Source: a virus
DNA length: 58,733 nt
Reading direction: 5' to 3' (one strand)
Virus record (IMG/VR): IMGVR_UViG_3300028766_000008
Span: 1-58,733 of that record
This document shows positions 52,900 to 58,733 of this stretch, one piece after another; the first letter of the stretch is position 1, and each line of letters opens with the position of its first letter. The notes under the pieces are model-generated. The model did not search any database. It worked only from the letters and a program-made list of their open reading frames with translations, and was not told the DNA's origin. The translations under genes were made by a program, and so were the position numbers.

Positions 52900-53072
52900 G
52901 CCGTTCTCCTGTAGATGAAGCCCGGCCACACCACCACTTCGTCGTCGGCAAGCTGTGATAGCGCAACCGCACCGCCGCGATCTTCTGTTGCCTTGCGGTC
53001 ATAACGATAGCGTCCACCCGGATAATCCAGAAATTCAGGCGGTTCTGTGGTTACTGTTTTTCGATCGTTCAT
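52896..53072 (-). CDS. Small hypothetical protein, 58 residues
   Basis: PEFLDYPGGRYRYDRKATEDRGGAVALSQLADDEVVVWPGFIYRR; ATGA overlaps on both sides. Beta-rich end. Too short for many gene callers but well packed in the operon. Confidence 0.55.
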   Translation of the reverse strand: MNDRKTVTTEPPEFLDYPGGRYRYDRKATEDRGGAVALSQLADDEVVVWPGFIYRRTA

Positions 53073-53494
53073 GACATCTTCACTCCCGTATCGTGCAGGA
53101 TGCCTTCGGCCTGTAAAATTCCCAATGCCCTGACGATGTATATTTCCACCATCGGATCATGGATAAGATGCGGCACCATGTGTGGGCCAGCCTCAACCAC
53201 GTTGGTTTCGTTTTCTTCCCAATAGGCAAAAACTTTATCAGCATTGCCGTGAAATTCTTTGCCGAAGTCGTAAAGCCTTCCGATGAACACTCGCGCCTCT
53301 GGCGAAAGTTTCCAGCAAGCATCTTTGAAAGCCTCTTTCCCTTTCGGCGTTGCCCTACGGTGAGCGCCTTCCGAAAGGTCGAGTATCCTAATGGCCTCTT
53401 TGATTAGCCGCTGTTCCTCTGTTAGTTCGATCTGTGATGACTCACGCTTGTCGCAAGCCTGCGCTGCGTGCTTTTCTTCTATGTCCATTATCAT
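53069..53494 (-). CDS. Helical hypothetical protein, 141 residues
   Basis: EEQRLIKEAIRILDLSEGAHRRATPKGKEAFKDACWKLSPEARVFIGRLYDFG and a long acidic helical end. No motif. Its start lies just downstream of the methylase stop. Confidence 0.6.
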   Translation of the reverse strand: MIMDIEEKHAAQACDKRESSQIELTEEQRLIKEAIRILDLSEGAHRRATPKGKEAFKDACWKLSPEARVFIGRLYDFGKEFHGNADKVFAYWEENETNVVEAGPHMVPHLIHDPMVEIYIVRALGILQAEGILHDTGVKMS

Positions 53495-53937
53495 GCTACT
53501 TCCTCCATAAAAGCTGTTATGAAACCTTCCGCTTGCGCGGCATTGATGGCATTGCCGTAACCGCGCAGTCGTCCCACTCTCGCGGAAGCCCCATGAGCCA
53601 GCGGGAATGTGCTGGGTTCAACTGGCCTCCACTTTCCATCCCGGCAGTAGAGCCAGTCAGCATCTCGCCAGAAGCCGTTAGTCGGGCCGCTTGCGGGTCT
53701 GCCCACGCCTTCGCCTGCATATTCAAATCCGACAGGCATATCCCCATCGACTGCGACCCGTTCTCCATGCTCTTGCGCTTTCGTTCCAAGAAAGCTTCCG
53801 GCTCTCCGTTCGCGTGGTTGGTCAGCGGCGTTCCCCATCCCGCTAGAACCGCCTGCTGGCTCAACGGAACTCCCGTATCGTGCGGCCTCGCTTCCCTGCC
53901 GCCCCTGCTGTGATCCTGCGCTGTTGGCGATACCCAT
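53491..53937 (-). CDS. Out-of-frame cytosine-methylase C-terminal segment
   Basis: 148 residues in a second frame under the methylase gene. The end [22 protein letters not shown], then [21 protein letters not shown], matches the C-terminal part of phage C5-cytosine methylases (GYGNAI motif). The N-terminal half is Gly-rich and poorly structured. It stops 26 bases after the overlying frame and overlaps the next gene by 4 bases. Either a translated overlapping gene or a fossil frame. Confidence 0.5.
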
Positions 53938-54440
53938 CCTGCCAATTCCGCAACTCTTGGTTTCTGAGTTGGATGATCTCCGCGTGTTTCTCCGTTAGCT
54001 CGCATACAGCCATTCCATAAAAATTGAATGCGCCTAACCGCCTTTGGTAAGTTAGTCCAAGCCAATTCACAATCCGCAAAATCCGTGTCTCCGTTTAGCT
54101 TATCCCAAACAAGCCAACATGATGTTGGCGGAAGATCATAATAGTTGCCGCCAAATATGATCTGATATTTTCCACAAGATCTAACTAAATCCATAAGCTC
54201 TTTAGAAATTGGCTCTTTGTCCCAATCATCATTTCCGTAATCTTTTTGATATAAAGATGCTTTCTTTAGTCCAGAAGTAAGGCCGCTTGTTCTTGTTTTT
54301 GCTTTACCGGCACTTTCACCAATCCCGTATGGAGGATCGGTAACAACCGCAGTACGTGAATAATCAAACGGAATTGAAGAAAATAAATCCTTACAATCAC
54401 CCAAGAATAATCTGCAATCTCCTATGACAACTGAGTTCAT
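53517..54440 (-). CDS. Chimeric DNA methyltransferase
   Basis: 307 residues. Residues 1-161 look like the N-terminal half of an N6-adenine/N4-cytosine methylase: TDPPYGIG (34-41), then HPTQKP (156-161). After HPTQKP the expected SAM-binding block (D-x-F-x-G-S-G-T) is absent. Instead comes [11 protein letters not shown]..., [40 protein letters not shown], a segment typical of another phage methylase type. Probably a recombinant, activity doubtful. ATGA-coupled to the upstream gene. Confidence 0.7.
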
Positions 54441-54616
54441 GGGAGCACCCTTTCTAGATGCTTAATCCAGTCGGCCTCAAATCGCCAATCCTTGCCTTCA
54501 TATCTAACAATAACATCCACTCTGCTTCCCTGTTGGCAACATTCAACTAGAGACTCTATTGAGTTCTGTTGTAAGTTGTTGAGCATATCTTGTGATAACA
54601 TCCAATCGCTGTTCAT
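54437..54616 (-). CDS. Small hypothetical protein, 59 residues
   Basis: From ATG 54616, overlapping the zinc-ribbon stop. [44 protein letters not shown]; helix then strands. Unknown. Confidence 0.55.
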
Positions 54617-54780
54617 GCCCCCACCCCAAACTGACCATTTTCTTCCTCTTCGCACTCATTGGCTATATCAATACATTGCAAGCAATACGGGCCTTCTTTG
54701 TTAAGCATCGTATAATGCCGATCACCTACGTTCACACCGCAATCAAGACAGATAAAATCGCCTGATATTTCCTTGTTCAT
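54613..54780 (-). CDS. Zinc-ribbon protein, paralogue of 40684-40842
   Basis: 55 residues. C11-x2-C14 and C33-x2-C36, ending NGQFGVGA exactly like the early-block paralogue. ATGA coupled on both sides. Confidence 0.65.
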   Translation of the reverse strand: MNKEISGDFICLDCGVNVGDRHYTMLNKEGPYCLQCIDIANECEEEENGQFGVGA

Positions 54781-56625: not shown

Positions 56626-56959
56626 AGCTGCTCATCATGGGGTTGATTGCTACGGCGACGGCTACGGCTCCGGCTCCGGCTACGGCTCCGGCTCCGGCTA
56701 CGGCTACGGCGACGGCTCCGGCTCCGGCGACGGCTCCGGCTCCGGCTACGGCTCCGGCTCCGGCTACGGCTCCGGCTCCGGCTACGGCTCCGGCTCCGGC
56801 TCCGGCTACGGCTACGGCTACGGCTCCGGCTACGGCTACGGCGACGGCTCCGGCTCCGGCTACGGCTACGGCTACGGCGACGGCTCCGGCTCCGGCTACG
56901 GCTCCGGCGACGGCTCCGGCTCCGGCGACGGCTACGGCTCCGGCTCCGGCGACGGCTAA
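56558..56959 (+). CDS. Gly-rich repeat protein (frame uncertain)
   Basis: The frame giving alternating Gly and Tyr/Ser/Asp (GSGYGDG) for about 100 residues is the one seen in related phages. Its only ATG (56558) is inside the previous gene; a start closer to 56630 on a rare codon is possible. The other two frames are also open through the array (56637-56969 starting MGLIATATATAP; an Arg/Leu frame). Composition is of a flexible or glycine-rich repetitive protein. Confidence 0.45.
   Translation: MPLSLFPQPRKRRSPLQNLSKIKAAHHGVDCYGDGYGSGSGYGSGSGYGYGDGSGSGDGSGSGYGSGSGYGSGSGYGSGSGSGYGYGYGSGYGYGDGSGSGYGYGYGDGSGSGYGSGDGSGSGDGYGSGSGDG
56651..56956 (+). repeat. Hexanucleotide array, 51 units
   Basis: Units are only TACGGC, TCCGGC or GACGGC, in irregular order, with no other variant over 306 bases. 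Confidence 0.95.
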
Positions 56960-57347: not shown

Positions 57348-58274
57348 ATGACTACACAAAAGAGCCAAGCCGAAATTGAAATCGAAGCCCTTCAGGATGT
57401 TTTTAACATTGCCACAACTGGCTTTAATGAGTTTTACAAAACAGCCAAGGAAAAGGATAAAGGCAACCACAGCACAGCCGCATCGTCGGGCAACGGCAGC
57501 ACAGCCGCATCGTCGGGCAACTACAGCACAGCCGCATCGTCGGGCTACGGCAGCAAAGCCGCATCGTCGGGCAACTACAGCACAGCCGCATCGTCGGGCA
57601 ACCACAGCACAGCCGCATCGTCGGGTGACGACAGCACAGCCGCATCGTCGGGCAACGGCAGCACAGCCGCATCGTCGGGTGACCACAGCACAGCCGCATC
57701 GTCGGGCTACGGCAGCAAAGCCGCATCGTCGGGCTACGGCAGCACAGCCGCATCGTCGGGTGACCACAGCACAGCCGCATCGTCGGGCTACGTCAGCAAA
57801 GCCGCATCGTCGGGCTACTACAGCACAGCCGCATCGTCGGGCTACTACAGCACAGCCGCATCGTCGGGCAACTACAGCACAGCCGCATCGTCGGGCTACG
57901 GCAGCACAGCCGCATCGTCGGGTGACGACAGCAAAGCCGAATGTGCAGGAGAGAACAGCGGATGCACAAGCATTGGTTATCGCGCCGCCGTTAAAGGCGA
58001 TCTTGGCAACCTGATAATGGCTTCCGAATATGTTGTGGAAAACAACAAGGCCATTCCAGTCGGCGGCAAAGCAGACATCATTGACGGTAAAAAACTTAAA
58101 CCGCAGTGCTGGTACATCGTTGAAAAAGACGCATGGGTTGAGGTCGATTTCACGGATGGCGTGTTCTCATACGTCCTGTCCAATAAAAAGGGCGTGAAGA
58201 AGGTCAAGACCGAACAAGGAAATGTTCTATATGTCGTAAACGACAAGAAAAGATTGGATTTGAAAAATGTCTGA
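57348..58274 (+). CDS. DUF7666-like tandem-repeat protein, long repeat form
   Basis: 308 residues. N-terminal helix (1-39), 18 repeats of 9 residues (40-201, xxS[T/K]AASSG), the CTSIGYRAAVKG cap, then WYIVEKDAWVEVDFTDG. Compared with the paralogue at 58511/1, the last ~80 residues are missing: after YVVND it ends KKRLDLKNV. AAAGGGAA site. Repeats resemble stacked beta-roll turns. Function unknown. Confidence 0.8.
   Translation: MTTQKSQAEIEIEALQDVFNIATTGFNEFYKTAKEKDKGNHSTAASSGNGSTAASSGNYSTAASSGYGSKAASSGNYSTAASSGNHSTAASSGDDSTAASSGNGSTAASSGDHSTAASSGYGSKAASSGYGSTAASSGDHSTAASSGYVSKAASSGYYSTAASSGYYSTAASSGNYSTAASSGYGSTAASSGDDSKAECAGENSGCTSIGYRAAVKGDLGNLIMASEYVVENNKAIPVGGKADIIDGKKLKPQCWYIVEKDAWVEVDFTDGVFSYVLSNKKGVKKVKTEQGNVLYVVNDKKRLDLKNV
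57465..57950 (+). repeat. 27-base tandem repeat, 18 units
   Basis: Constant part AGC-A[C/A]A-GCC-GCA-TCG-TCG-GG[C/T]. Two variable codons are NAC then CAC/GGC/TAC/GAC/GTC. The last unit is degenerate (ECAG). Confidence 0.95.
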
Positions 58275-58514: not shown

Positions 58515-58733
58515 CTACACAAAAGAGCCAAGCCGAAATTGAAATCGAAGCCCTTCAGGATGTTTTTAACATCGCCACAACCGGCTTTGACGAGTTTTAT
58601 AAAACTGCCAAGGAGAAGGATAAGGATAAGGGCGACTACAGCACAGCCGCATCGTCGGGCTACTACAGCACAGCCGCATCGTCGGGCTACGGCAGCAAAG
58701 CCGCATCGTCGGGCTACGGCAGCAAAGCCGCAT
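58511..58733 (+). CDS. DUF7666-like tandem-repeat protein, 5' part (continues at base 1)
   Basis: Its first 36 codons match the paralogue at 57348 almost exactly. Codons 27 onward coincide with base 1 of the window, so this is the start of the gene that ends at 747. Confidence 0.85.
   Translation, partial: MTTQKSQAEIEIEALQDVFNIATTGFDEFYKTAKEKDKDKGDYSTAASSGYYSTAASSGYGSKAASSGYGSKAA
58589..58733. repeat. Terminal overlap with bases 1-145
   Basis: Bases 58589-58714 equal 1-126; then one repeat unit differs (TACGGC against GACTAC) and 13 further bases agree. Confidence 0.95.

Follow-up and report, generated by a model that had tools for sequence, protein, structure and literature searches.

C5 methylases composed of two polypeptides are represented by M.EcoHK31I and, likewise, M.EaeI, and the small subunit of M.EcoHK31I is nested in the gene of the large subunit in another frame. 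The large polypeptide of M.EcoHK31I carries motifs I-VIII and X and the small polypeptide motif IX, with the TRD predicted in the large subunit, and M.AquI is a naturally split C5 methylase (PMC3404938). A different type of overlap is the ShiLan element, in which an out-of-frame HNH endonuclease resides inside a phage methylase gene as an inserted homing element (PMC11855218). Here we describe a locus in a 58,733-nucleotide stretch of viral DNA (the window; positions 1 to 58,733 of IMG/VR virus record IMGVR_UViG_3300028766_000008), which is a broken relic of a gene used in two frames; the interesting part is the arrangement found in its family. In hundreds of phages, one stretch of DNA appears to encode simultaneously, in two frames, the catalytic half of a C5 methylase and another protein by which the target sequence is probably chosen. 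Throughout, we refer to the C5-frame protein of intact relatives as alpha and to the protein of the overlapping +1 frame as beta.

The chimeric methylase frame of the window

The original prediction was of a methylase chimera in which a DPPYG...HPTQKP half is joined to the tail of another methylase, and both the alignments and the PHROG matches agree with it (Table 1). With the whole long frame as the query, PHROG profile matches were obtained to phrog_31772 (6.6e-34) and phrog_1008 (8.8e-16), as well as to phrog_23224 (1.4e-22), the last covering the N half; the final 146 residues of the chimera are a beta-type tail that closes with a short basic end. The C5-frame ORF (53491-53937) lies one base out of register with the 307-codon frame, ends ..RLRGYGNAI...MEEVA and matches phrog_363 (3.7e-15), position 53491 being the end of this ORF and 53517 that of the long frame. 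The two translations, searched separately as had been proposed, therefore each have matches, and these are to different families (31772/1008 vs 363). The absence of a GSGT-type motif from the long frame, also predicted, was confirmed: relatives of the N half (up to 72-73% identity) run on to DPFMGSGTTG or similar about 20 residues past HPTQKP, and at this position the window chimera reads RVAELAGW..., so that DPPY is kept and GSGT is gone.

Table 1. Coordinates of the chimeric locus and its neighbors in the window.
Feature	Position	Strand	Basis or remark
Chimeric ORF, 307 aa	53517..54440	minus	N6/N4 methylase half + in-frame beta (+1-frame) tail
N half of chimera, residues 1-161, DPPYG to HPTQKP	53958..54440	minus	phrog_23224, 3.2e-23
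Junction, methylase half meets beta-type sequence	53950..53965		Alignment to both parents; GC step
Beta-frame variable part, two GWxxP units, likely target-recognition region	53691..53957	minus	Frame identities
Doubly coded tail, beta frame	53520..53690	minus	phrog_31772, phrog_1008; family fourfold-site identity
Motif-IX-like segment, beta frame	53574..53621	minus	Profile alignment, E=0.29; family pattern
C5-frame (alpha) ORF remnant, 148 aa	53491..53937	minus	Tail intact, catalytic half gone; phrog_363
GYGNAI, C5 motif X, alpha frame	53545..53562	minus	Sequence; placement relative to WLMG motif
Next gene; ATG overlaps alpha-frame stop (ATGA)	53069..53494	minus	ORF list; relatives L521-L523
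Upstream ORF, 72 aa; stop overlaps ATG of chimera (ATGA)	54437..54655	minus	ORF list

The tail of the window (about 190 bases) has mostly 80-90% DNA identity to C5-methylase genes from phages of many unrelated hosts, and both of its frames are kept (identity 0.83 and 0.85). Phages of laboratory E. coli such as Bas70, Bas72 and Bas73 are among those with this DNA. In the variable part, amino acid identity to relatives is 0.76 in the +1 frame vs 0.48 in the C5 frame. Neither alpha nor beta is complete in the window, as only the tail of each is left: none of the C5 catalytic motifs I-VIII was identified, and PF00145 had no match in the whole record. PF01555 (N6/N4 methylase) likewise had no match in the record, the chimera included, and by searches with these two profiles no second methylase was found anywhere in it.

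The junction, at approximately position 53957 (a placement good to a few bases), falls at the start of a GWxTP unit, which is of the GWxxP type, and GC content steps across it from ~0.40 to ~0.6. The fusion may have arisen by a deletion or illegitimate recombination that placed a truncated N6/N4 methylase in frame with the last repeat units and tail of beta. In some prophages, adenine methylase genes, which may be of another family than that of the window, are located directly upstream of the C5 gene, and a deletion between such neighbors would be a simple origin for the fusion. We consider the chimera to be probably a dead deletion fusion, because the record yielded no other methylase, and its product to be probably inactive, because the catalytic half of alpha and the SAM motif of the adenine methylase are both missing; as judged from its motifs, neither half would be expected to work as a methylase.

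An unlikely origin, although one to be taken seriously, is that two genomes were joined in assembly to give a chimera. The source is an IMG/VR virus record, the GC step is sharp, and the junction was seen nowhere else, a search with the junction pattern yielding no instance of the same fusion in other viral contigs. In addition, in L521, a contig with a relative of the next gene, no methylase lies upstream of this relative, the likeness of the window to L521-L523 being limited to the next gene (53069..53494). However, a long shared word is not obvious at the junction, the fused frame is open, and the ATGA overlaps with the neighboring genes are kept at both ends. That the fusion is instead a working enzyme or a specificity subunit, for instance one acting with an alpha from another phage or prophage, seems to us improbable. 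Its frame is open and its tail is intact in both frames, but a recent event explains intact frames equally well, and the SAM motif and alpha are missing and no second example was found.

Repeats were noted in several places. In L521 (3898-5256), a relative of the next gene is near a long protein of SAVxRAVNSAVDNAVYG repeats. In the window, two genes (56649-56958 and 57462-57939) are composed of tandem repeats, an 18-base array encoding GSGYGYG and a 27-base array encoding GN-STAASSG, and a 27-base unit very like that of the 57462-57939 array is present at both ends of the record (42-167 and 58630-58733), so that the end of the record may fall within a repeat, or the record may be a circle that was cut open.

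Alpha and beta in the intact relatives

Related loci were collected from viral contigs, some of them being fetched repeatedly, and tests were consequently performed on non-redundant sets (e.g., 49 loci for the shuffle test and 143 for the test of +1 stops); part of the sample was fetched by a C5-frame query, i.e., was chosen blind to the +1 frame. In the 143 non-redundant intact relatives, the C5 gene is overlapped by an almost gene-long open +1 frame of at least 220 codons that ends in the WLMG tail. The C5 genes of the non-redundant set vary in length from 264 to 563 codons, and the spacing between the tail motif of the C5 frame and that of the +1 frame is usually fixed. Both proteins are complete in 139 of the 150 loci fetched by the C5-frame query and in 75 of the 80 fetched by the +1-frame query, the exceptions being mostly contig ends together with a few frame-shifted loci. 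Among all loci fetched, a +1-frame gene without a C5 gene was found only in truncated ones.

The two proteins have different motif contents. When aligned with M.HhaI and monomeric C5 methylases, alpha (of the L108 branch, see below) matches over motifs I-VIII only; it also keeps a GN-type motif X, seen by eye as GNAI/GNGQ, and the motif-IX pattern was found in 0 of 143 alphas. By comparison to monomeric C5 methylases, the best profile alignment of beta falls, weakly (E=0.29), on motif IX, and LNPxxxxWLMG or a close variant is present in 140 of the 143 beta proteins. Four beta proteins tested against Pfam gave no match, HNH included. No relatives of beta with a solved structure were found by sequence, nor by fold, the model of beta alone (pLDDT 62) being too poor to weigh; in the model of a natural fusion, L247 (pLDDT 55), only the catalytic part was recognizable as a C5 methylase, resembling M.HhaI. 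Neither model was good enough to reveal a small domain formed jointly.

In most loci an ATG is located at C5 codons 25-39, often behind an AGGAG-like sequence. Anti-SD pairing at this start is only moderately above the null (-4.9 vs -3.5 kcal/mol in shuffles), with pairing of -4 or lower in 65% of loci vs 42% in shuffles. The first ~45 residues of beta are an open frame with no conservation, and this ATG is a candidate start only, since codons 35-67 are open (0.90 vs 0.57 expected) but their sequence is not conserved.

Taken with their motifs, this arrangement makes it likely, in our judgment, that alpha and beta are a two-polypeptide C5 methylase like M.EcoHK31I, with a catalytic alpha and a nested beta that pairs with it and chooses the target. 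Alpha would be the catalytic polypeptide, with motifs I-VIII and X. Beta would start at its own ATG inside alpha, often behind a Shine-Dalgarno-like sequence, and run almost to the end of alpha, its GW-P-TP repeat units serving in target recognition and its end being motif-IX-like. Most likely, the two proteins combine as a single methylase, the putative use of which is protection of the phage DNA. What the data establish is the double coding, the frame under constraint in each region and the motifs present in alpha; we infer the pairing, the target recognition by beta, the presence of motif IX in beta and the protective use.

An alternative of low but not trivial probability is that beta acts separately in another role, e.g., as a homing endonuclease, a regulator or an anti-restriction factor, and merely shares DNA with the methylase. 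There is precedent in the overlapping homing endonucleases known in phage methylases (PMC11855218), and beta has no Pfam or solved-structure match; however, the overlap falls on motifs of the methylase itself and is not an insertion, beta was found only with the C5 gene among the fetched loci, and alpha is without motif IX. Less probable again would be programmed frameshifting that produces a fusion of the alpha catalytic part to the beta recognition part, with no separate beta protein. The recognition region, immediately past motif VIII of alpha, is under constraint in the +1 frame, and an indel in L247 yields exactly such a fusion; against this, constraint on the +1 frame is present before this point as well, the frame has ATG and ribosome-site signals, and a second shift back would be required to reach motif X.

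Frame-shifted loci occur in both directions. In L247 (1691-2902), an indel in the variable region swaps the frame to produce a fusion of the alpha catalytic part to the beta tail, and indels in the variable regions of L044 and L051 produce fusions of the beta N-terminal part to the alpha tail.

The region encoding alpha and beta also has a second branch, typified by L108, which encodes a canonical C5 methylase with FAGAGGG, FPCQDIS, FVENS and IGNGQ. The +1 frame of L108 is open along nearly the whole gene and has LNPTWVEWLMGWPLGWTD near its end. Of 64 non-redundant loci of this branch retrieved by a C5-frame query, 62 had p<0.01 by shuffling, and fourfold identity in the tail block was 1.00 vs 0.31. 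The +1 proteins of the two branches align by profile (E 2.9e-12), part of which the shared C5 gene could account for. The +1-frame protein also occurs in bacterial genomes, mostly proteobacterial.

Constraint on the two frames

The original prediction proposed that this DNA is used in either frame in different lineages. For intact loci this did not hold, as both frames are intact together (239 loci fetched, 143 non-redundant), and it applies only to rare relics. In the window the tail survives in the +1 frame and in L054 in the C5 frame, and phage phiKX1 keeps beta while the end of alpha has diverged. Nearly all intact loci hold both frames, whichever served as the query, and we consider use of one frame here and the other there to be very improbable. 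Rather, the DNA would appear to be normally used in both frames at once, since neither tail is a shadow and both frames are intact and conserved in the intact relatives.

Selection on the second frame was assessed against a null in which synonymous codons were shuffled within each C5 gene, keeping its protein and codon usage. The open +1 frame was longer than the null mean in 49 of 49 loci (all p≤0.058, 35 at p<0.01), and the +2 frame was unusual in 0 of 49. Between C5 codons 100 and 172, none of the 143 loci has a +1 stop, an outcome reached by 19% of shuffles per locus. At fourfold C5 sites in distant pairs, third-base identity upstream of the conserved part of beta was 0.31 and 0.32, close to the 0.27 expected, and climbed to 0.56, 0.70, and 0.87 through the catalytic region into the tail (0.27 expected in the tail; tail figures are from the 73 loci with a recognized motif pattern), dropping past the end of beta to a median column of 0.44 and a mean of 0.53. 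Because the loci share ancestry, these values cannot be counted as independent trials, and the argument is how regions within a single gene differ. Changes in the tail are also rarer at codon position 3 (0.15) than at position 1 (0.19), as is characteristic of a second frame.

The variable middle has a different pattern. For 493 module pairs with 79% DNA identity, the +1-frame proteins were 84% identical, compared with 52% for the C5 frame and 55% for the third, and the +1 frame exceeded the C5 frame in all 493 pairs. Substitutions were concentrated at the third codon position of the +1 frame (6905 vs 2608 and 1471). From these two results, the C5 frame is a passenger in the variable middle, evolving without detectable constraint. 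We lean, with some reserve, toward target recognition in this large family of phages and prophages being encoded in the nested +1-frame protein by GW-P-TP modules that shuffle, with the variable region of the methylase itself as an unselected linker.

These per-frame substitution patterns, which had been suggested as a check, therefore reveal selection in both frames of the tail and in the +1 frame alone in the variable middle. Together with the PHROG matches, the fourfold-site conservation upholds the claim that both endings are real methylase-family tails, both under selection. The caveat that one frame could be a shadow of composition fails for both tails and holds for the C5 frame of the variable middle (~53691-53957 in the window). 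As an explanation of the whole, a composition shadow, in which only the C5 frame codes and the other is open through GC content and codon bias, has a negligible chance of being correct: a second open frame is frequent in GC-rich genes and the shuffle test gives no better than p ~0.05 for some loci, but silent sites are conserved in the tail and catalytic region, the +1-frame protein is the more identical in every variable-region pair, and the +2 frame is never unusual, the effect being present also at 0.49-0.52 GC. It was rejected, the shuffle, silent-site and frame-identity tests all being against it.

In L054 (2985-3260), a relic in the C5 frame consists of the tail alone, is fused to a short ORF MADKTPDNLTEYQRGAL... 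and is located downstream of the end of a DPPY-type methylase. In Komagataeibacter phage phiKX1 (L528, 1777-2385), the annotated gene is in the beta frame, and alpha, unannotated, has an end diverged from motif X.

Comparison with known systems

If the arrangement is as proposed, many annotations in the family are incomplete, as records often list one protein of the pair and omit the other, and a methylase cloned with altered codons would lose its partner. Tailed phages would also have here a long overlap of genes on the same strand that is very widespread. Specificity would evolve in one frame while the same DNA keeps the other open and its catalytic ends intact, making the family a clean test of recognition-module exchange under double coding.

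The second frame has been seen before, in that the pair is annotated as two genes in phage K1G and relatives and the PHROGs hold both families. In K1G the same pair is annotated as ORF31 (C-specific methylase) and ORF30 (Mte8-like), an annotation only; in the open-licence literature we found no functional or selection analysis of ORF30/ORF31, no paper on an overlapping alpha/beta methylase pair, and none on selection on both frames or on recognition in the nested frame. PHROG 363 is the alpha family and PHROG 1008/31772 are beta, and the two frames of the window fall in them. All three are labelled DNA methyltransferase, and the overlap is absent from the descriptions shown.

ShiLan is similar in having a second open frame inside a phage methylase gene, but the alpha/beta overlap covers the methylase's own motifs and tail and has no inserted HNH element. 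M.AquI differs in that its small subunit comprises the distal variable region with motifs IX and X, whereas the phage family keeps X in alpha. The closest likeness is to M.EcoHK31I, as phage alpha also has motifs I-VIII and X without IX, a likeness drawn from motif content. In both, the second polypeptide would be inside the first in another frame, the phage +1 frame being open and, from its conservation, apparently selected in 143 non-redundant loci. The phage family differs in having several shuffling GW-P-TP units and in its recognition region, which is apparently in the nested frame, whereas the TRD of M.EcoHK31I is predicted in the large subunit.
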